Assembly: GCF_005937985.2 (NCBI RefSeq)
Contig: NZ_CP042172.1
Location: 3,585,548-3,649,547 of the forward strand
From: Arthrobacter sp. KBS0702
GTDB lineage: Bacteria; Actinomycetota; Actinomycetes; Actinomycetales; Micrococcaceae
Direction: 5' to 3'
Length of the DNA: 64,000 nucleotides
The position numbers were made by a program, and so were the translations under genes. The first letter of the stretch is position 1. The number at the start of each line of letters is the position of its first letter. Under the pieces are notes generated by a model. It was not told where the DNA came from. It did no database searches and saw only the letters and a list, made by a program, of their open reading frames with translations. Of the stretch, positions 4,421 through 60,184 are shown one piece after another.

Positions 4421-5572
4421 TCACGCGGAAACCTCGGCCGCGGCGAGGGCGCCGTCGTCCTGGGCGCCGGTCGCCGGAGCGCCGGTGAGCGCCGCGGCCC
4501 GGACGCAGAGTACGTCGGGCAGGTGCGATGCGACCTCAGTGAAGTGTTCGCCTTCGTCGGCACTGGCGTAGACGCTGCCGCCGCGGGTCCCGAAGTAGAC
4601 GCCGGCGGGTTCGGCCGCATCGACGCAGGCCGCGTCGCGCAGCACGGCATTGAAATCGGCCTGCGGGAGGCCGTGATCCAGCCGTTTCCAGTGCGCCCCG
4701 GCGTCGTCCGTCCGGTGCACGGCCAGCTTCCCTTCCGGCGGAATCCGTTCGCCGTCGGCCTTGAGCGGGATGACCCAGGCCGTGCCGGCGCGGCGCGGGT
4801 GCGTGAGCATAACAAAGCCAAAGTCCGCCGGCAGCCCCTCGGCAATCGACTCCCAGCTTTCGGCGTCGTCGTCGCTGCGGTAGACGCCGTGGTGGTTCTG
4901 GGCGTACAGGCGGCCGTCGACGGCGGCGTCCGCCGCGATCTTATGGACGCACTGGCCGAATTCGGGGTAGGGGTCGGGGTTGAAGCGTGCGGAGATCCCC
5001 TTGTTCCGCGGCTCCCAGGAGGTGCCGCCGTCGACCGAGCGGTAGACCCCGCCGGTGCTCATCGCCACGTGCACCTTGTCACCGTCGGGGTTGACGACGA
5101 TCGAGTGGGCGGCGGCACCGCCGTAGCCGGCCCCCCATTCGCTGCGGTGCGGGTGGTCCCAAAGGCCGCGGTTGAGTTCGAAGTGTTCACCGCCGTCGGT
5201 GGACTTCCAGACGGAAATCGGCTCGCAGCCGGCCCAGACGACACCGGGGCGGGACTCGGCGTCGGGGTGGATCTGCCAGACGCGCTCCAGTGCGGCGTCG
5301 GTGTCCTCGGGGAATCGAATGGCGCCGTTTTCGGGCTCGTGCCAGGTTTCGCCGAGGTCATCGGAGTGGAAGACGGTGGGTCCCCAGTGCTCCGAGCGGA
5401 CCCCGACCAGGATCCGCGTCCGGCCCTCGCGGGTATCGATGCCGATGCTGGGGATCTCGCTCATCAGGAAATGGGGGCCGGACAGCGACCAGTTTTGGCG
5501 GTCCCGGCTGGTTGCCAGCCACAGGCCCTTCTTGGTTCCAATCGCCAGGACATAACTCTCTGCGGTAGCCAT
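4421..5572 (-). CDS. BNR/Asp-box repeat protein (sialidase-like propeller)
   Basis: A 383-residue protein built of repeated Asp-box motifs (S/T-x-D-x-G-x-x-W/F): SDDLGETWHEP, STDGGEHFEL, SVDGGTSWEP, SDDDAESWES, TDDAGAHWKR and SADEGEHFTE. This predicts a beta-propeller of about six blades, as in sialidases, sortilin and photosystem II assembly factor-like proteins. There is no signal peptide, so it is probably cytoplasmic, and the catalytic arginine triad of true sialidases is not obvious. The MoaD-like gene follows at once. A function as glycosidase should not be assumed. Confidence 0.8.
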   Translation of the reverse strand: MATAESYVLAIGTKKGLWLATSRDRQNWSLSGPHFLMSEIPSIGIDTREGRTRILVGVRSEHWGPTVFHSDDLGETWHEPENGAIRFPEDTDAALERVWQIHPDAESRPGVVWAGCEPISVWKSTDGGEHFELNRGLWDHPHRSEWGAGYGGAAAHSIVVNPDGDKVHVAMSTGGVYRSVDGGTSWEPRNKGISARFNPDPYPEFGQCVHKIAADAAVDGRLYAQNHHGVYRSDDDAESWESIAEGLPADFGFVMLTHPRRAGTAWVIPLKADGERIPPEGKLAVHRTDDAGAHWKRLDHGLPQADFNAVLRDAACVDAAEPAGVYFGTRGGSVYASADEGEHFTEVASHLPDVLCVRAAALTGAPATGAQDDGALAAAEVSA

Positions 5573-15587: not shown

Positions 15588-16547
15588 ATGAGTGAGACTT
15601 CCGCCAACGCCGTCACCCTGCGCTTCCTTGCCGCCCCCACGGACGTCGGCCACAGCGGCTCCGTGGACGCCGGGACGGTGCTCGAGTGGGTGGACAAGGC
15701 AGCCTACGCCGCCGCCGTCGGCTGGGCGAAGTCCTACTGCGTGACCGCCTATGTGGGGAATATCCACTTCGCGGATCCGGTGAACAGCGGCGACATGGTG
15801 GAGGTCACGGCAACCATCGCCTACACCGGCCGTTCCTCCATGCACATCCGGACCGTCGTCTCCTCCGGCGATCCCAAGGGCAGCCCCGCCACAATGCGCA
15901 GCCAGTGCATGGTGATCTTCGTGGCCGTGGGCGAGGACGGCAAACCGATTCCGGTGCCGCAGTATGAACCGTCGACGCCGGCCGAGATCGAGCAGCGCGA
16001 CCACGCGCTGGCGCGGATCAAGGTCCGCGAGGACATCGTCCAGGCCATGAGCGGGCAGGAATACACCGACGCCGGAACCGCCGAACGCGTTACGCTGCGG
16101 TTCATGGCGGCCCCCACGGACGTGAACTGGGGCGGCAAGGTCCACGGCGGAATCGTCATGAAGTGGATCGACGAGGCCGCCTACGTGTGCGCCTCACGCT
16201 ACTGCGGGATGGACACGGTGGCGGTCTTCTCCGGCGGCGTGCGGTTCTACCGGCCGCTGCTCATCGGCCACCTCGTGGAGGTGGAGGCCCGGCTGGTCTA
16301 CACCGGGACGAAGGGCATGCACATTGCCGTCCACGTCCGCTCCGGCGATCCCAAGGGGCACGAACTGAACCTCACCACGTACTGCCTGACCGTCATGGTG
16401 GCCCGGGACGAGAACGGGACCTCCGTGCCGGTCCCGAGGTGGGTTCCGGTCTCCGCGGAGGATAAGCGGCTGCACGCGCATGCCCGGGAGCTGCTGGAGA
16501 TCAGGGGCCGGGCACCCGGAAACCGGCTGCCCAACCACCTGCTCTAG
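15588..16547 (+). CDS. Acyl-CoA thioesterase with two hotdog domains
   Basis: A 319-residue protein made of two clearly duplicated hotdog units: RFLAAPTDVGHSGSVDAG...EWVDKAAY (first) and RFMAAPTDVNWGGKVHGG...KWIDEAAY (second), each ending near M-H-I-x-V-x-V-x-SGDPKG. This is the YciA/BFIT-like acyl-CoA hydrolase pattern. The second unit keeps the usual GGxVHGG active-site region; in the first it is changed to SGSVDAG, suggesting division of labour. ATG at 15588 preferred. Its stop overlaps that of dnaB in a shared CTAG. Confidence 0.88.
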   Translation: MSETSANAVTLRFLAAPTDVGHSGSVDAGTVLEWVDKAAYAAAVGWAKSYCVTAYVGNIHFADPVNSGDMVEVTATIAYTGRSSMHIRTVVSSGDPKGSPATMRSQCMVIFVAVGEDGKPIPVPQYEPSTPAEIEQRDHALARIKVREDIVQAMSGQEYTDAGTAERVTLRFMAAPTDVNWGGKVHGGIVMKWIDEAAYVCASRYCGMDTVAVFSGGVRFYRPLLIGHLVEVEARLVYTGTKGMHIAVHVRSGDPKGHELNLTTYCLTVMVARDENGTSVPVPRWVPVSAEDKRLHAHARELLEIRGRAPGNRLPNHLL

Positions 16548-17926
16548 AAGCCTCCGCCGCCGGCATCGCCCGCCATGTTGGCGAAGCGGGAGTAGTGGCC
16601 CTGGAACGCCACCACGATGTCCTTGGTGGGACCGTTGCGGTGCTTGGCGATCAGGATGTCCGCCTCGCCGGCGCGCGGGGACTCCTTGTCGTAGACGTCT
16701 TCGCGGTGCAGCAGGATGACCATGTCGGCGTCCTGCTCGATCGAGCCGGACTCGCGCAGGTCGGAGACCATCGGACGCTTGTCCTGGCGCTGCTCGGAGC
16801 CACGGTTCAGCTGCGACAGCGCGATGACGGGAACCTGCAGTTCTTTGGCCAGCAGCTTGAGTGCGCGGGAGAACTCCGAGACTTCCTGCTGGCGGGATTC
16901 GACCTTCTTGCCCGAGCTCATGAGCTGCAGGTAGTCGAGGATGACCAGCTTTAGGTCGTGCTGCTGCTTCAGCCGGCGGCACTTGGCGCGGATTTCCATC
17001 AGCGACATATTGGGGCTGTCATCGATGAACAGCGGGGCATCGTTCATCCGGCCCATGGTGGTGGCGATCTTGGACCATTGCTCGTCCTTGATGGTGCCCT
17101 TGCGAAGGTCCTGCAGGCCGATCGTGGCCTCCGCCGAGAGCAGGCGCATCGCGATTTCGTTCCGGCCCATTTCGAGCGAAAACATGACCGTGGCGAGGTT
17201 GTTCTTGATGGCCGCGGAGCGGGCGAAGTCCAGCGCGAACGTGGACTTGCCGACGGCGGGACGGGCGGCGATAACGATCATCTGGCCCGGGTGCAGGCCG
17301 TGGGTCAGTTCGTCGAGTTCATAGAAGCCGGTGGGGACGCCCACCATGCCTTCGCCGCGGTGCCCGGACGCCTCGATCTCATCCACTGTCGATTCCATGA
17401 CGTCCTTGAGGACGACGTAGTCCTCGGCGGTGCGGCGCTCGGCCACGGCGTAGACCTCCGCCTGCGCCTGGTTGACCAGGTCCTCCACCTCGCCGTCCTG
17501 GCCGTAGCCGAGCTGGACGATCTTGGTGCCCGCATTGACCAGCCGGCGGAGGACGGCCCGTTCGGCCACAATCTCGGCGTAGTAGCCGGCATTGGCCGCG
17601 GTGGGAACGGTCTGGATCAGCTCGTGGAGGTAGGCCGGGCCGCCGATCCGGTTGATTTCGCCCCGCTTGGTCAGCTCATCCGACACGGTCACGGCATCGG
17701 CGGGCTCGCCGCGGCCGTAGAGGTCGATGATGGCCTCGTAGACGGTCTCGTGCGCCGGGCGGTAGAAGTCCTGGCCGCGCAGGATTTCCACAACGTCCGC
17801 GATGGCATCCTTGGACAGCATCATGCCGCCCAGCACGGACTGTTCGGCGGGGATGTCCTGCGGCGGCTTGCGGCTGCCTTCGGCCCCCCGGGTGCCCTCA
17901 ACCGAGTCAAGATGCGTAACTGACAA
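16544..17926 (-). CDS. dnaB: Replicative DNA helicase DnaB
   Basis: A 460-residue hexameric 5'-3' helicase that unwinds the replication fork. The N-terminal domain (about residues 20-125, DIPAEQSVLGGMML) is joined by a linker to the RecA-like motor: Walker A ARPAVGKST at residues 221-229, Walker B LVILDYLQLM, and the C-terminal QQEVSEFSRALKLLAKEL and SGSIEQDADMVILLHR motifs. It is complete and uninterrupted by an intein, which many actinobacterial DnaB genes carry at such motifs. It is separated from the rpsF-rplI group by four genes. DnaA-box-like motifs lie upstream. Confidence 0.97.
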   Translation of the reverse strand: MSVTHLDSVEGTRGAEGSRKPPQDIPAEQSVLGGMMLSKDAIADVVEILRGQDFYRPAHETVYEAIIDLYGRGEPADAVTVSDELTKRGEINRIGGPAYLHELIQTVPTAANAGYYAEIVAERAVLRRLVNAGTKIVQLGYGQDGEVEDLVNQAQAEVYAVAERRTAEDYVVLKDVMESTVDEIEASGHRGEGMVGVPTGFYELDELTHGLHPGQMIVIAARPAVGKSTFALDFARSAAIKNNLATVMFSLEMGRNEIAMRLLSAEATIGLQDLRKGTIKDEQWSKIATTMGRMNDAPLFIDDSPNMSLMEIRAKCRRLKQQHDLKLVILDYLQLMSSGKKVESRQQEVSEFSRALKLLAKELQVPVIALSQLNRGSEQRQDKRPMVSDLRESGSIEQDADMVILLHREDVYDKESPRAGEADILIAKHRNGPTKDIVVAFQGHYSRFANMAGDAGGGGF

Positions 17927-18551
17927 AACTGCCGTCCTTCATAGTGTTCCGGCGGTGTCGCGTTCCCCGCCGGCGTTTAAGCCATCTGTTGTGGTGCCCG
18001 CGTTGCAGCGAAACGTGCCCCGGGCCCCCAGGCGCCCGCCGCTTACTTCCTATCAGCCCGCACCGACTTTTTGACCTGCCCGCAGGAGCTGCGCCGGCCA
18101 TGCGGTGCCAGCCCGCCCGGCACCTCGCAGCGGGACCGGAAGTCGGTGCCGCCGCGGCTGGACACCCGCAACGTTAGCCCCCGATCGGGCAGGCTCCAAC
18201 CCGGCTTCCCCGCACCCCTGTGGATAAGTTGTGGACTAACGGCCCCTGCTTGTGCACAGCCTGTGGGAACGGCTGTGGATAGAAGAATACTTTGCCGCCT
18301 AACATGCCGCTGACCTGCGGAAATACACCGTTTTCCTTGTGGACGAAAAAGAAATTGCACCAAGTTTCATCCACAGCTTGCACCCGGCGGCTGGGGATAG
18401 CGGCGGCGTACGGAGGCCACAGGCCGACGCAAATATGCGAATTTTGTGATGTTTGTCACCGGAAGGGGCGGAATTGACGGCCCTGACCGCGGCTTGTATG
18501 CGAAACCCAGAATGTGCTGTGGATAACTGCTATCTGGCATAAGCTGTGGCC
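17927..18551. other. Gene-free 625-bp region between dnaB and the L7/L12-like genes
   Basis: No reading frame here is convincing on either strand. The right half is rich in TGTGGA/TCCACA motifs, including two exact 9-bp DnaA boxes (18219-18227 and 18518-18526), and is lower in GC than its surroundings. It must hold the divergent promoters of dnaB and of the gene at 18552. Confidence 0.7.
18218..18526. promoter_or_regulatory. DnaA-box cluster upstream of dnaB
   Basis: Matches to the DnaA box TTATCCACA (reverse TGTGGATAA): exact at 18219-18227 and 18518-18526; one mismatch at 18274-18282 (TGTGGATAG) and 18367-18375 (TCATCCACA); weaker TGTGCACAG at 18251 and TTGTGGAC repeats near 18229 and 18338. 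The density is far above chance for this base composition. Confidence 0.6.
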
Positions 18552-52741: not shown

Positions 52742-53068
52742 ATGAGCAACGCTAAAGACGTAACAGACGCCAGCTTCAGCACCGACGTACTGGGGGCCGA
52801 CAAGCCCGTTATCGTGGACTTCTGGGCAGAATGGTGCGGACCCTGCCGCAAGCTCGGTCCCATCCTCGACGAGATTTCCGTCGAGTACGCCGAGAAGGTC
52901 AACGTCGTCAAGGTGAACGTCGACGACAACCCGGCCATCGCGGCTGAATACGGCATCACCTCCATCCCCGCTGTGTACCTGTTCCAGGGTGGCGAAGTAA
53001 AGGGCACCGTCATCGGCGCCAGGCCCAAGCAGTTCTTCGAAAAGGAATTCGCGGACGTTCTGTCCTAG
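52742..53068 (+). CDS. trxA: Thioredoxin
   Basis: A 108-residue oxidoreductase with the active site WCGPC (Cys32, Cys35) and the thioredoxin fold order (VIVDFWAE, DDNPAIAAEYGITSIPAVYLFQGG). Partner of trxB upstream. A terminator follows 48 bp after the stop, and then a gene-free region begins. Confidence 0.97.
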   Translation: MSNAKDVTDASFSTDVLGADKPVIVDFWAEWCGPCRKLGPILDEISVEYAEKVNVVKVNVDDNPAIAAEYGITSIPAVYLFQGGEVKGTVIGARPKQFFEKEFADVLS

Positions 53069-53116
53069 TCGGCAACACTCCTTTCCGGATAGCCCCCTGA
53101 AGGGGTGGATCCGAAT

Positions 53117-53151
53117 GGCGGCTCCCTCTCCATGAGTGGGGGCCGCCTTTT
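53117..53151 (+). terminator. Terminator of trxBA
   Basis: GGCGGC (53117-53122) and GCCGCC (53142-53147), extended by CCC/GGG, form an imperfect stem followed directly by TTTTCG. Confidence 0.85.
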
Positions 53152-53655
53152 CGTTTCATATGGTTCGACGTCTTGGCGGCGCACGGTGTTCGCGGATTCC
53201 GTGTCATGCGTGCCTCTGGACGTTGTCCCTCAAGGGGCCGCCACGCCCGAGGCGCAACGAGTTGCGGCTGATTAAAGACGTATTCGGGCGGCAGCGGCGC
53301 TGGTTTGTTGATCGTTTCTGTTCTGCACCTTGGGGGCCTTAGTCCAGGTCCGATAGCGGACGTAGTCAAACGGCAAGGTACTTTGCGCGCGGTCAGAGTT
53401 TGGTCTGCTTTGCGCCTCGCAGGTGCTGGGCACGCGCGTGTCTGTGGGGATATCCCCGTGCCTCGTGCACCCTGCAGCGCGGTTTGAGGACATGCGACGC
53501 AGCCGGTCCGGCGTCGGTGTTGGGAGCCTGAACCATGTGGGCGGCGCTATGCAATCAGCAGCATTTGGTCTCATGAACCCGCTCGCTGGACGTGTGGGGG
53601 AGTCGGGATCCGGGGGTCGGTGCAAACGAGCACCACGGTACCGATAGTGCCACTA

Positions 53656-53671
53656 TGTTTCACGTGAAACA
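53656..53671. other. parS: parS site 1
   Basis: TGTTTCACGTGAAACA, the exact 16-bp bacterial ParB-binding consensus. Nearest parS to trxA. Confidence 0.93.
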
Positions 53672-53878
53672 CTGCCCGCGGACCGGCGGGCCGTGTCAAC
53701 TTCACGCAGTCCCCAGGACCTAGAGTTGTCAGCGCCACGGCTCCTGTTTCGGGTCGAGATCATCTCCGCATCCCTTTTGTCGATGTTCCGAGAGATTGTG
53801 TCGGCTACTTGTTGTGCGTGTCCCGGGGCAGCACGTGCACCACTTTACGACTAGGCATAGCAAACGTGGCGTCGGCAA

Positions 53879-53894
53879 TGTTTCACGTGAAACC
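53879..53894. other. parS: parS site 2
   Basis: TGTTTCACGTGAAACC: the 14-bp core is perfect, the outer base differs. 223 bp from site 1. Confidence 0.92.
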
Positions 53895-54102
53895 GTCGCC
53901 CCACAGGGGCATCCAGGCTGCTCGCCGGGCAATGGTAGGCGTGCAGTTGCCTCGGAATCCCGCGTACATCGGCGGCATTCGGTTACGGTATCCGACGCGC
54001 GGCGCAACCTCCAACGCCCCTGTGCCTGAAAACCGCGCTACAACTAGCGCCTGGCAAGCGTTATCCCCGATGCCTGCATAGATCCACACGGATTCGCCGG
54101 CC

Positions 54103-54118
54103 CGTTTCACGTGAAACA
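54103..54118. other. parS: parS site 3
   Basis: CGTTTCACGTGAAACA: perfect core. 224 bp from site 2. Confidence 0.92.
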
Positions 54119-54533
54119 TCCAGCGCGTATGGTGGCCAGCCATCAACACAGTTTCACAAGTCCTGGAATTGCACATCGGTCACCCACATGGACTATTGAT
54201 AGTCCGCTATCAAATATTGCCCCATCCGCATCCCCACGGATGTGGGCACCGTTTTGAGCTCGCCGTTCGCGGCCTACCCCGGGCCAAATCGTCGTGGGAC
54301 TGCAGGTTGCCTGTGGCGGTCTGGTTTCCGCGCCGCCCCTGAAAACGCTGGGCCGAAGTCTGGCAACAGCGGTTTGAGTCGCCGCGCCCCCATTGCACAG
54401 GGAAGTGTACGTCGCATCCTCAGGAACACCGAAGCAGACCCGGGGGAGACGCATCGAGCCCAGCGCCACTTTGCTGGGAAACGACCAAGTCGTCGTTGAA
54501 CACCAAAGGGGGCGTGTATGTCTCCCGGGGGCA

Positions 54534-54549
54534 ATGTTTCACGTGAAAC
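54534..54549. other. parS: parS site 4
   Basis: TGTTTCACGTGAAACG: perfect core. 431 bp from site 3. Confidence 0.92.
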
Positions 54550-55505
54550 GGGTGATCGAGTTTAGACACCCAACGGCCGACATTACTAGAGTGTAGGAAC
54601 CCACCCGGGCAACGCAATGCGCCACGAAAATTTCCCCTACTAATCGACTCCGGATCCTGGTTGGGTCCCACACCCAGCCCGTCAGCGTACCCCACCCCAA
54701 GCCCACAAAAGTCCTGGGAGCACCGAGTGAGGGGCAACACCGCCCGCCGTGCGAATTCGGGTTAGGGCCGTCGAGCCCACACTACCGGCACACGTGCCGG
54801 GCTGGCTCCGCGCCCGCGCCCTCACCGACCCAACGGACGGCCGCGATGAGCTGAGACGCTCGCCCGCATCCCCCAAGCTGCCTGGCACCCGCTGCCGGAT
54901 CCTTGAGCGGAGACCCGAGGACGGTCCGGAGCACATGCCGGAGCCACTTCCGGGAAGCACCGGTCGGACGGCTCCGGCGCGCCACTAGCGGCGGTCAGGT
55001 GGAGAGGGTCTGCCGCCGGAGGGGACTGGCCAGAGTGTTTACGTCCGACTGCGCTGCCGGACCAGCCCCACGACCAGCTGATCTCAGCATGTCCGCTTCT
55101 GGTTGGCGGACATAGGTAGGAATCCATCCGTGGGCCGGCCACCTCAAGGACACTGCTGGCTCGAGGTATGCACATCCTGATGAGGTCCGGCGTGGTCCCG
55201 CGAGCCGGGCTGACGGTCGGTTCGCCGCCTGGTCCGGCAGCGGTTCTCCGGCCCACACGCAGTCCGACAACAGGAACCACATTGGGGGCAGCAGTAGGCA
55301 CCGCGCTGCCCGGGTCATGGTCGGCGCCAGCACCGGTGATCAGGGGAGCGGCGTCCGGCTCGGTTGTTCGCGTTCCCCTGCCCGGCATTCCGCCGTCGCC
55401 GGGGCTGCCTCTTTGGGCAAGGGGGTAAGGATCTCCCGCGGTTTCCCGCGCTTCCGACCTACTCCGGAGGGGAAACACCGAGGGGACAGATGGCCGACCG
55501 GCCAG

Positions 55506-55573
55506 TTCTCCACAGAACTTATGCACACCGTTATCCACAGGCCCGTGAGAGATTACACACAGCTCTATCCACA
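55506..55573. promoter_or_regulatory. DnaA-box cluster A in the parS region
   Basis: Within 68 bp on one strand: TTCTCCACA (55506-55514), TTATGCACA (55519-55527), exact TTATCCACA (55531-55539), TTACACACA (55553-55561) and CTATCCACA (55565-55573). All face the same way with 3-14-bp gaps. Confidence 0.7.
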
Positions 55574-55776
55574 GGCCCCGCCAGCACTCTCCTGGGGCCA
55601 GGCGGGTGCAGTAGCAGCGGCTTGGGCTGGTCGGCGCCAGTCCGCGCCCCGTCCGAGCAGGACCGCCCGGACGCTATCGGCTTAGACCGGATCAGAAGCC
55701 AGGAAAATGAACCACGTCGTGGGGATTTTTCAGGCACTGCCGGGCTTGATGGATGCGGCAGTCCGTGTTGGTGCTA

Positions 55777-55792
55777 CGTTTCACGTGAAACA
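55777..55792. other. parS: parS site 5
   Basis: CGTTTCACGTGAAACA: perfect core. It lies between the two DnaA-box clusters. Confidence 0.92.
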
Positions 55793-55885
55793 TTCGAGCG
55801 GTGCTTCTACACAGGGGAGTCTGCCCAACGAGAGGTTACCCACCAAGCCCGGCTCCGCTTCGACCCGTGTCCCCAGGGCCCGAGG

Positions 55886-55918
55886 TAATCCACAAAGTTA
55901 TCCACAGCGATATCCACC
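55886..55918. promoter_or_regulatory. DnaA-box cluster B in the parS region
   Basis: TAATCCACA (55886-55894), exact TTATCCACA (55898-55906) and ATATCCACC (55910-55918), phased at 12 bp in the same direction, 94 bp past parS site 5. Confidence 0.65.
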
Positions 55919-56999
55919 GCTCTTTCCACGTCGGTCTGCGTCGCGCTCCACTGCCCGTAGCTCTCGCAAAGCCAGTTCGAGGCGGCCTTCAGGACGTGCT
56001 GCCGCTATGTCGGCGGAAGCTCGGACGGGCTCCAGCGGCGACCCAATACGGCCACCTGGGGTCCGAGGCGGTCGTCCACGCACCCTATGCCTCCGAGGGA
56101 AGCTCGGCGTTCCAGCGGGCCCGGATGCGGGCGCGGAAGGGGTGCTCGGGTGTGACCCAATTTCACCCTCACATCCAGCGAGTGCCTGGAGCCGGAACTG
56201 CTCCCAGGGAACCGTCGGGCGCGAAGGCTTGGGAGCACGTATCTGGGGGAGCCGAGGGTCCTTCGGTAGACGCAGTAAGCAGAGTCGGTAACGTGTTGCG
56301 TCCGCGCAATCCGTGGGTGGCAAGGGAAACGCAGACCCTGTGCCGCCTGCACCGCTGGGCACTACGTCAGGACCCCGGCGTAGCTGGCAGGCGAAGGGCG
56401 AAGTCGACGGGCAACCCGTGGGCCCGGCACCACTGGCACGGACGTTCCCAACCACCCGGTGCCTGACTCGCTGGCAGCGTGCTTGCCAACGGAGTTCGAG
56501 CCAGTGGCCGCCAGCACGCCTGGGCCGAAGGAGCTGAGCTTCACTGGGACCCCGCCGTCGGTTTGTGCTCCACGAGTTGCGGCCGCAGGTCACTAAGCAA
56601 GAAGCTGCGCCTGACCAGCGAGGGCGCCGCTGGCCGCATCACCAACGACGACGGCATCCCGCACCACGCAAACTGGACTTCAAGAGGCAGGCGCACCAGG
56701 CTGCCCTTGGGATCGTTAGTGGAAGTGTCCTTCGCGTAGCTCCGTCAGATTTCCCGCGGTCGAATCCGTGCAGCATGATGGGCTGTGAAGATGTTCAGAG
56801 GGCGGCATCTAGCGGAGAAAGCGGAGGGACCGGATCATCCGATGAGCTTCGGGGGACACCAGTGTCTCACACCCACCAGAGTCAAACGTCACCAACCGCA
56901 GCTAACCGCTGCCCTCACCGTGACCTGTCAGGCTCCGCGATACTCCGCCGATGGGCAGGGCAACGGTAGATACCGTTAGGGCGCGGCAAAAGACGGTAC

Positions 57000-57015
57000 T
57001 GTTTCACGTGAAACA
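57000..57015. other. parS: parS site 6
   Basis: TGTTTCACGTGAAACA, exact 16-bp consensus. Confidence 0.93.
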
Positions 57016-57278
57016 GCCGACCAAGTTCCCGCTGCTGTGGTTTACGCCCCACTGGCCGGCGCAGGCATTTTTCGGGGAGCCGACTTGGACAATTTCAGAG
57101 AGCGGAGTTGGCTGGCAAGGCCCGGGGAGCATCCACCGCCGCTGGATCCCGCGCCCAGGGGGTTCCCGGGTACGCCATCCCGACCGCAAGGCGAATCCAG
57201 AACTCGACAAGGTCATTCGGTTCCGGTCCCACTCCCTACATCGGGATCGATGCAGCAGAACCGACGACACGAGGCAAC

Positions 57279-57294
57279 TGTTTCACGTGAAACA
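57279..57294. other. parS: parS site 7
   Basis: TGTTTCACGTGAAACA, exact consensus. 279 bp from site 6. Confidence 0.93.
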
Positions 57295-57675
57295 CGCCTA
57301 CGCCCCCGCCGGGCTCCGAATCGCCGCGGGACTACAGCAGGTCGCCGCCCCGTGTGCGGCGTGGCCAGTCATCCTGTCGCGCAGCCCCACTCCGAGCGCA
57401 CCCCGTGCCTCCAAACCCGCACGTATGCGCCCGCAGGGACCCCTGAACCGTGCCCGAGCGACTGGCTTCCACCACCGCCACAGCGGAGACTAGCAACCCG
57501 ACAAGAGCCTTCTGCGGCGCTCCTGAGGCCGGCAAAGTCCCTAAAAACCAACAAACAGGACCGCACAGCCGCAAAATGGCGCCCGGCTACGTGGAATTCA
57601 TCCTCTAATTGGGACCCACGGCAAGCAGCGTCGCCTAGGCCGCGAAGGACTAGCAACGCACACGCACGGAAGAGT

Positions 57676-57719
57676 GCTGCGGGGCTGCGGGGCTGCGGGG
57701 CTGCGGACAAGGCTGCGGA
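57676..57719. repeat. Short tandem repeats beside the parB terminator
   Basis: An 8-bp unit GCTGCGGG occurs three times in a row from 57676, followed by two GCTGCGGACAA units. It lies directly downstream of the parB terminator on the transcribed strand. Confidence 0.6.
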
Positions 57720-57726
57720 CAAAAAG

Positions 57727-57756
57727 CAGGGCCCGTTTCACGTGAAACGGGCCCTG
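57727..57756 (-). terminator. parS: parB terminator whose stem is a parS site (parS site 8)
   Basis: A perfect 30-bp palindrome, CAGGGCCCGTTTCAC and its reverse complement, centred on CACGTG. The middle 14 bp are the parS core (57735-57748). It starts 24 bp after the parB stop, and on the transcribed strand it is followed at once by CTTTTTGTC, so the RNA hairpin plus U-tract forms an intrinsic terminator. One sequence therefore serves as protein-binding site in DNA and terminator in RNA. Confidence 0.88.
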
Positions 57757-57779
57757 GCAAAGCTTGGATGGCAGGAAAC

Positions 57780-59119: not shown

Positions 59120-60184
59120 CTAACGTTCAGCAATTTCCGCTGCGGCTTCCAAGTAGGATAGGGCGCCGCTGGAGGAAGGGTCGTAGGTCATGACGGTCTG
59201 TTGGTAGCTCGGCGCCTCCGAGATCCGGACCGAGCGCGGAACCACAGCTCCGAGAACCTGCTCCGGGAAATGTTCACGCACCTCCGCTGCCACCTGGGCC
59301 GCGAGGTTGGTGCGGCCGTCGTACATCGTCAGCAGGATGGTCGAGACCACCAGATCCGCATTGAGGTGCTTCTGGATCATTTCGATGTTCTTGAGCAGTT
59401 GGCTCAGGCCTTCCAACGCGTAGTACTCGCACTGGATCGGGATCAGGACTTCACTGGCGGCGCAGAAAGCGTTGACGGTCAGGAGACCAAGGCTCGGCGG
59501 GCAGTCGATGAAGATGTAGTCCAGCCGTTCCTCGCCGTTCTTAGCGCGTTCCTTGGCATAGACGTCGATGGCGCGCCGCAGACGCTGCTCCCGGGCGACC
59601 AGGCTGACGAGTTCAATCTCGGCGCCGGCCAGGTGGATCGTCGCCGGGGCGCAAATCAGTTTCGCGATGTCCGGGCAGGGAGCCACGACGTCCTGCAACG
59701 GCACGTCGTTGATGAGGACGTCGTAGATGCTGTCGACGTCGGCGTGGTGCTCGATTCCCAGCGCGGTGGAGGCATTGCCCTGGGGGTCAATGTCGATCAC
59801 CAGGACATTGAGCCCGGCGGCCGCCAGGGCGGCAGCGATATTGACGGTGGTGGTGGTCTTGCCCACCCCACCCTTCTGGTTTGAAACGGTGAAGATCCGG
59901 GTCTTTTCCGGCTTCGGCAATTCGCGACCCAGCAGCCGTTCGCGGCGCTTGTTCTCGTGGGCAAGCTCACGGGCAATCGGGCTTGAATCGTCAATGGAAT
60001 CGAGCACGTTGCCGATCGAGGGAACGGAGGTTTCACGTGAAACGCTTGCAAAAACCGAGTCTGTAACCGAAAGCGTTTGCTTCGGCGACGCATTGTGAGC
60101 GGCAGCCGGCGCCCCGAAGGCGCGTGCTGACCCCAAGGACACAAACGGGGGAATCCGTTGTGTGGAGGCTTCGCTACTGCTCAC
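59120..60184 (-). CDS. parA: Chromosome-partitioning ATPase ParA (Soj)
   Basis: A 354-residue deviant-Walker ATPase: KGGVGKT at residues 104-110, FIDCPPSLGLLTVNA, and the C-terminal RISEAPSYQQTVMTYDP. It has an N-terminal extension of about 95 residues, common in actinobacteria. A parS site inside the gene encodes VSRET at residues 48-52. The GTG start at 60184 lacks a clear ribosome-binding site; a later start is possible. Confidence 0.96.
   Translation of the reverse strand: MSSSEASTQRIPPFVSLGSARAFGAPAAAHNASPKQTLSVTDSVFASVSRETSVPSIGNVLDSIDDSSPIARELAHENKRRERLLGRELPKPEKTRIFTVSNQKGGVGKTTTTVNIAAALAAAGLNVLVIDIDPQGNASTALGIEHHADVDSIYDVLINDVPLQDVVAPCPDIAKLICAPATIHLAGAEIELVSLVAREQRLRRAIDVYAKERAKNGEERLDYIFIDCPPSLGLLTVNAFCAASEVLIPIQCEYYALEGLSQLLKNIEMIQKHLNADLVVSTILLTMYDGRTNLAAQVAAEVREHFPEQVLGAVVPRSVRISEAPSYQQTVMTYDPSSSGALSYLEAAAEIAER
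60029..60044. other. parS: parS site 9, inside parA
   Basis: GGTTTCACGTGAAACG: perfect 14-bp core (60030-60043) within the parA coding region, 2.3 kb from site 8. Confidence 0.92.

Follow-up and report, generated by a model that had tools for sequence, protein, structure and literature searches.

A gene-free field of parS sites between trxA and parB

The DNA analysed here is a 64,000-nt window of the chromosome of Arthrobacter sp. KBS0702 (whole genome 3,649,547 bp; the assembly begins at dnaA, C1:1), and its subject is the long gap between two genes that are presumed to be trxA and parB, next to a presumed parA. The 4,711 bp enclosed by the stops of trxA (53068) and parB (57780) contain eight parS sites, one of which (hereafter the central parS) is flanked by two arrays of DnaA boxes, the three together forming what we call the DnaA-parS-DnaA module (Table 1). 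Since trxA on the plus strand and parB on the minus strand converge on the gap, it is the promoter region of neither gene.

The first-pass annotation had described 53152–57779 as 4.6 kb without a credible gene. This interval is indeed gene-free, although its start misses the first 83 bp of the gap. Codon periodicity, the check that the annotation had suggested, gave no coding signal: the median chi2 of the three-base periodicity in guanine-cytosine (GC) content was 2.4 in the gap, 42 in the rest of the window and 1.5 in shuffled sequence, and positions with chi2 >14 accounted for 0% of the gap and 82% of the rest of the window. Ten open reading frames (ORFs) of the gap, the eight longest included, had no Pfam match at E<=0.1, and no Rfam match was found in the whole window at gathering scores. 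Homologous proteins encoded at this place in relatives, which the annotation had named as evidence against its view, were not found either when ORFs of 18 coding outgroup gaps (>=150 aa, <=6 per gap) were searched with tblastn (1e-3) against 79 non-coding gaps. Four weak tblastn matches of ORFs from the window's gap overlap, by their coordinates, DnaA arrays or a parS. Hidden or decayed genes were therefore rejected, as periodicity, Pfam and tblastn (with the outgroup gap genes and the gap's own ORFs) revealed nothing convincing, and a structured RNA was rejected for want of an Rfam match. The region has one promoter-like site, with 0.7 expected, and four terminator-like sites, not above the shuffles (mean 4.9).

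The idea that no other non-coding stretch of the genome exceeds this gap in length was not supported: 888 kb of the strain's own sequence shows non-periodic runs of 7.1 and 6.1 kb in another region (L235, C1:3440000-3459999), and the test itself broke the trxA-parB gap into runs of 3.3 and 2.3 kb. This test is unsafe in L235 because GC is low and long ORFs are present there. L235 holds two stretches of lower GC (mostly 0.54-0.61), with long ORFs and without GC periodicity, and may be acquired DNA.

An exact search with the 14-bp sequence GTTTCACGTGAAAC, which we take to be the parS core consensus, recovered eight sites in the gap and a ninth in parA, just as the first-pass annotation had counted them. 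Even when three mismatches were allowed, the window still contained these nine only (100 shuffles: mean 1.36, maximum 5), and they are the only ones in the genome, with none elsewhere even at one mismatch. They span 6.4 kb close to oriC with parA and parB adjacent, the arrangement of a ParABS centromere. The accompanying statement that bacterial parS mostly lie scattered within genes fails for the single Actinobacterium looked at, Corynebacterium glutamicum, in which nine of ten are intergenic (PMC7083940).

Among relatives, three members of the genus g8 (L102, L104 and L128) have a long gap in which mostly one-mismatch parS-like sites, often GTTCCACGTGAAAC, replace the exact core, and a fourth (L127) has six exact cores. 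Judging from these sites, ParB specificity may have shifted in g8.

Two DnaA-box arrays at a near-fixed distance from a central parS

The loci of relatives were fetched via a ParB anchor. We measured 166 trxA-parB gaps including that of the window, which reduce to 155 unique ones; another 22 loci, in which trxA was absent or the gene order odd, did not enter this set. An array was defined as at least two DnaA boxes with <=1 mismatch, one of them exact, spaced 11-14 bp apart.

The first-pass annotation recognised the parS field of the gap but overlooked the DnaA arrays, although they are its most conserved part. In a blastn comparison of the gap over 150 genomes of the window's genus (its own included), 103 genomes were matched. 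Among the matches listed, nearly all fell at query positions 2433-2510 and 2806-2862, the DnaA arrays, and 4650-4690, the parS of the parB terminator, with most at 2806-2862, the right array; the exceptions were 583-608 (parS 1), 2702-2726 (central parS) and 2240-2290 (one genome, twice). Similarly, parS and DnaA words were the only ones shared over 34 gaps above the shuffled level.

The boxes of relatives are arranged head-to-tail on the trxA-to-parB strand, with a pitch of mostly 12 bp. In the 155 unique gaps, 126 arrays lie on this strand and 0 on the opposite one, whereas 2.15 Mb outside the gaps contain 4 arrays on this strand and 44 on the opposite one. Those 44 comprise 29 in dnaA-dnaN, one corresponding to a cluster at 18.2 kb of the window, and 14 elsewhere, in loci outside the array-bearing group and mostly near the dnaA start. 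In the own genome, tandem boxes with a 3-base gap (<=2 mismatches) are found only in the module and in dnaA-dnaN (oriC).

In the window, the first base of the central parS lies 247 bp downstream of that of the left exact box and 120 bp upstream of that of the right one. In all but two of the 52 two-group pairs, the arrays are separated by 324-403 bp; the two exceptions measure 469 and 1,851 bp. The 1,851 bp, against about 350 bp usually, are those of L013, whose gap has a coding-like insert.

Taking the exact box of the right array as anchor, which worked in 62 of the 67 array-bearing gaps (window included), a parS is located at -150 to -100 in 49 gaps, with 4.6 expected and a maximum of 13 in 2,000 uniform placements. 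These 49 parS start 109-144 bp before the central box of the right array, 31 of them at 117-123 bp, and three of the five unanchored gaps also have a parS at the central distance (L013, L186, L023 relative to a one-mismatch box). On both sides the module is bordered by zones poor in parS. The next outer parS are loosely placed, with distances spread over hundreds of bp, and therefore serve as a built-in check on the possibility that descent has merely frozen the distances. Conservation of parS positions, by which the first-pass annotation had proposed to be judged, is thus split: the outer parS drift, while the central parS remains within a few bp of its place by the array, or about 11-12 bp off.

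Whole genomes were also searched with the strict pattern parS-N95-125-TTATCCACA and a reversed control. Among the matches listed, 150 from 145 genomes, the offsets cluster at about -110 (18), -121 (101) and -133 (28), with nearly empty troughs, the satellite peaks being 11-12 bp from the main one. Since the -133 class carries the same three-box array as the main class, its spacer is genuinely longer. Rayleigh statistics gave R = 0.69, or 0.68 when each entry contributed a single match, whereas the null never exceeded 0.36. The spacers are as unlike each other as shuffled sequence (median identity 0.489 versus 0.484), showing that length is kept without sequence. Stacked spacers had no further conserved column at a 0.45-bit threshold, except for single positions beside the boxes and parS.

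Table 1. Position of genes, parS sites, DnaA arrays and related features in the window
Feature	Coordinates	Strand	Evidence and remarks
Gene-free intergenic region, centromere field	53069..57779		No 3-periodicity, no Pfam/Rfam match; recurs in relatives as a long, mostly non-coding gap
Left DnaA array	55506..55573	+	Boxes 55506 (1 mismatch), 55519 (1), 55531 (exact), 55565 (1), head-to-tail; first three at 12-13 bp pitch
Right DnaA array	55886..55918	+	Boxes 55886 (1 mismatch), 55898 (exact), 55910 (2 mismatches); 12-bp pitch
parS-free zone left of module	54550..55505		62 anchored gaps: 19 observed vs 73 expected, -950 to -150 of right box
parS-free zone right of module	55919..57000		62 anchored gaps: 5 observed vs 41 expected, -100 to +350
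parS 1, exact 14-bp core GTTTCACGTGAAAC	53657..53670		Exact match
parS 2, exact core	53880..53893		Exact match
parS 3, exact core	54104..54117		Exact match
parS 4, exact core	54536..54549		Exact match
parS 5, central parS of the module	55778..55791		Exact match; equivalent in 49/62 anchored gaps
parS 6, exact core	57001..57014		Exact match
parS 7, exact core	57280..57293		Exact match
parS 8, exact core, within parB terminator-like hairpin	57735..57748		Exact match
parS 9, exact core, inside parA coding region	60030..60043		Exact match
parB terminator-like hairpin	57727..57756	-	30-bp perfect palindrome then CTTTTTG; contains parS 8; most pairs among terminator-like sites
trxA, presumed thioredoxin, 108 aa, left border	52742..53068	+	Matched in relatives
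parB, presumed centromere-binding protein, 423 aa	57780..59051	-	Match in 148/149 family genomes (own included)
parA, presumed partition ATPase, 354 aa	59120..60184	-	Translation matched in relatives

The last parS before parB differs from the others in its surroundings. When located <=150 bp from the parB stop, it lies in a palindrome extended by at least 7 bp in 48 of 77 cases, versus 9 of 586 other parS, and 21 of these 77 have a strict T-rich tail. Beside the parB terminator of the window, at 57678-57722, there are short tandem repeats GCTGCGG(GG).

Two further clusters of DnaA boxes were noticed in the origin region. One, at 18219-18526 of the window, is intergenic and has seven boxes (<=1 mismatch, two exact) upstream of a minus-strand gene (16544-17926) that resembles, in its sequence, the replicative helicase gene dnaB. 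The other (L237, C1:17151-17962) has thirteen boxes (<=1 mismatch, both strands) in a gene-poor stretch 17 kb beyond dnaA on its other side, with a rhomboid-like gene and a DNA-3-methyladenine glycosylase-like gene as neighbours.

Distribution among relatives

The 67 array-bearing gaps measure 3.9-13.2 kb (median 5.4 kb) and have 5-11 parS (median 8). Coding-like windows make up at most 10% in 61 of them and exceed 10% in the other six, the highest value, 61%, being that of a 13 kb gap (L161). A further 23 gaps are long (1.6-9.2 kb), less than 40% coding-like and have 2-6 parS, with the array absent; the rest are shorter than 700 bp (33), coding (18, one with parS) or unclassified (14). Array-bearing gaps with a named owner belong to Arthrobacter, Pseudarthrobacter, Paenarthrobacter and Sinomonas, with one Paenarthrobacter (L034) lacking the array as an exception. 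Short gaps were found in Psychromicrobium, Kocuria, Micrococcus and several Rothia, and coding ones in most Cellulomonas and kin. The 48 loci of the window's genus (own included) give 42 distinct gaps, four being duplicates of named loci and two having no usable trxA. Each of the 42 exceeds 3.5 kb in length and carries five or more parS and one or more arrays; in 37 there are two arrays or more. On the ParA tree (72 rows), the array trait needs a single change, with weak support (17/73).

Within the genus, 155 of 206 genomes (own included) carry the strict pattern, against 0 for the reversed control. The family sample of 149 genomes and 32 genera has it in 8 genomes from 2 genera: 6 of 8 in the window's genus and, at the same offset, 2 of 6 in another genus (g7). 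In the order sample, 5 of 198 genomes have it, all from the window's genus, which leaves 0 among the 183 that belong to other families. From this distribution, the DnaA-parS-DnaA module looks like a lineage-specific innovation.

Interpretation and comparison with known systems

The gap is well supported as a dedicated gene-free centromere. The interpretation given in the first-pass annotation is supported in part: the long, mostly gene-free, parS-rich gap recurs (in the 67 array-bearing gaps and in 42 of 42 in the genus), but the positions of most parS are unconserved. Going further, we lean towards the view that this is the chromosome's dedicated ParB/SMC-loading centromere, with a spacing-constrained DnaA-ParB element coupling replication initiation to segregation. 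More tentatively, the module could be a phase-locked switch and a new class of cis-element, in which the initiator and the partition protein build a single nucleoprotein complex with a defined geometry. Such a complex would count or time initiation and license segregation, and the element would owe its conservation to geometry and not to sequence.

From the geometry of the module and precedents in other systems we infer a DnaA-ParB coupling complex; occupancy by both proteins, looping, low transcription and the direction of regulation are likewise presumed. Mera et al. are said to have described, in 2014, a DnaA-bound parS region in Caulobacter crescentus. According to PMC6399470, DnaA binds Caulobacter parS and partitioning needs DnaA-ATP, and in Vibrio cholerae there is an interplay between RctB sites and parS2. 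Regulation of DnaA by Soj/ParA, and contacts between ParB and DnaA in V. cholerae and Deinococcus, are reported in PMC7022226. Finally, actinomycete DnaA domain I dimerises and may link distal box clusters, as proposed in PMC13270200.

The locus resembles that of C. crescentus in having a centromere near the origin (about 8 kb) with DnaA boxes, DnaA there being reported to act at parS apart from initiation. Unlike in Caulobacter, here two tandem same-strand arrays of predicted DnaA sites flank one parS at near-fixed spacing, within a gene-free field of several parS, in Actinobacteria. The rctA/parS2 locus of V. cholerae chromosome II likewise combines initiator sites and parS near an origin, but the initiator is RctB and not DnaA, the chromosome is a secondary one and rctA may act via RNA or transcription. 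The parS1-10 of C. glutamicum are ten origin-proximal sites forming a ParB/SMC loading hub, although they occupy 35 kb, compared with 6.4 kb here, and lie 73 kb away from oriC, and DnaA arrays are unmentioned in the available text (PMC7083940). Judged by their listings, searches of the open-access literature turned up neither the module nor a gene-free trxA-parB gap rich in parS.

Several observations weigh against the coupling reading and its phase-locked form. A register shift by one box could account for the -110 class (5 gaps). The best period is 11.7 (R 0.69; 0.64 at 10.5), which is not cleanly that of B-DNA, the periods 10.5 and 11.7 being inseparable, and a high R can be obtained from a single tight peak alone. 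By single linkage, 31 of the 49 spacers fall in one chain, and keeping one spacer per alignable cluster leaves few points (n=15, p=0.003); retention of the spacing by common descent with few indels thus keeps some probability. In addition, the central place is without an exact parS in 13 of the 62 anchored gaps: in five (one a named Paenarthrobacter) a parS instead lies on the far side of the right exact box, 84-91 bp to its right, in two the place is taken by a parS with one mismatch, and in six no parS is close. The strict pattern is likewise missing from 51 of the 206 genomes of the genus and from four of the six of g7.

Alternative explanations

The alternative that survives best, which we nevertheless consider unlikely, is that the arrays are a site titrating or regulating DnaA that merely happens to lie among parS, the central one playing no part. 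Box clusters by which DnaA or initiation is tuned exist away from oriC in Escherichia coli (datA/DARS) and near oriC in Streptomyces; neither is known to include a parS at fixed spacing. The head-to-tail arrays lie outside oriC yet close to it and share with datA/DARS-type loci a cluster of boxes outside oriC; the two further box clusters of the origin region also fit this explanation. However, pure titration would need neither a parS nor a fixed spacing, whereas in most relatives a parS deviates by no more than a few bp from its place by the right array, and the surroundings of the module are poor in other parS.

A neutral origin appears improbable. ParB silencing would make the region unfit for genes, parS copies would accumulate, and the near-fixed spacing would be a relic of descent, as is compatible with the free turnover of the gap sequence, the drift of the outer parS and the weakly supported single change on the ParA tree. 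Yet spacers that differ like shuffled sequence have a length constant within about 2 bp, or shifted by about 11-12 bp, the distances to the next parS scatter over hundreds of bp, and the offset is the same in the two genomes of g7.

It is very improbable that the spacing is set by a third protein or by a transcript across the module. A bulky complex could give a fixed spacing without sequence conservation, but the spacers have no extra conserved columns at the threshold used, apart from single positions beside the boxes and parS, the gaps no widely shared words beyond parS and DnaA boxes above the shuffled level, and Rfam and the near-expected number of promoter-like sites speak against a transcript. 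Least probable of all is that the arrays constitute an additional replication origin, or even the real one, which two DnaA-box clusters about 8 kb from dnaA might suggest: a second oriC at the module was rejected, as an AT-rich unwinding element is absent (spacer GC 0.58 versus 0.595 in the gap; lowest-GC 50 bp located between -100 and +600 relative to the left array in 12 of 67 gaps) and a separate dnaA-dnaN oriC region exists in 65 loci, with boxes (<=1 mismatch) in 63, on both strands, and a GC of 0.52-0.58 in array-bearing named loci, except for Sinomonas (0.64).

Proposed mechanism and significance

If the arrays and the central parS indeed form a coupling element, the centromere located about 8 kb from dnaA would be a transcription-poor ParB/SMC-loading field of eight parS with a composite DnaA-parS-DnaA element at its centre. 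DnaA, probably as DnaA-ATP, would form short filaments on both same-strand arrays, and these could touch across about 330-400 bp, for instance via DnaA domain I, enclosing or fencing the central parS. ParB loaded at this parS, or ParA delivered by ParB, might then alter the DnaA complex; alternatively, the DnaA complex may license or block ParB loading there. A single site, duplicated soon after initiation, would thereby serve as the readout of both how many DnaA-ATP molecules are present and the onset of segregation. The gene-free field probably shields ParB and SMC from transcription.

The coupling of initiation to segregation is largely open outside a few models, and the module, with its parts held at set distances amid drifting sequence, would offer a compact genetic handle on it, with one parS, two arrays and one spacer length that can each be changed separately in a harmless soil bacterium. 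In addition, a centromere that is near gene-free throughout a genus fits the idea that transcription disturbs ParB/SMC loading.

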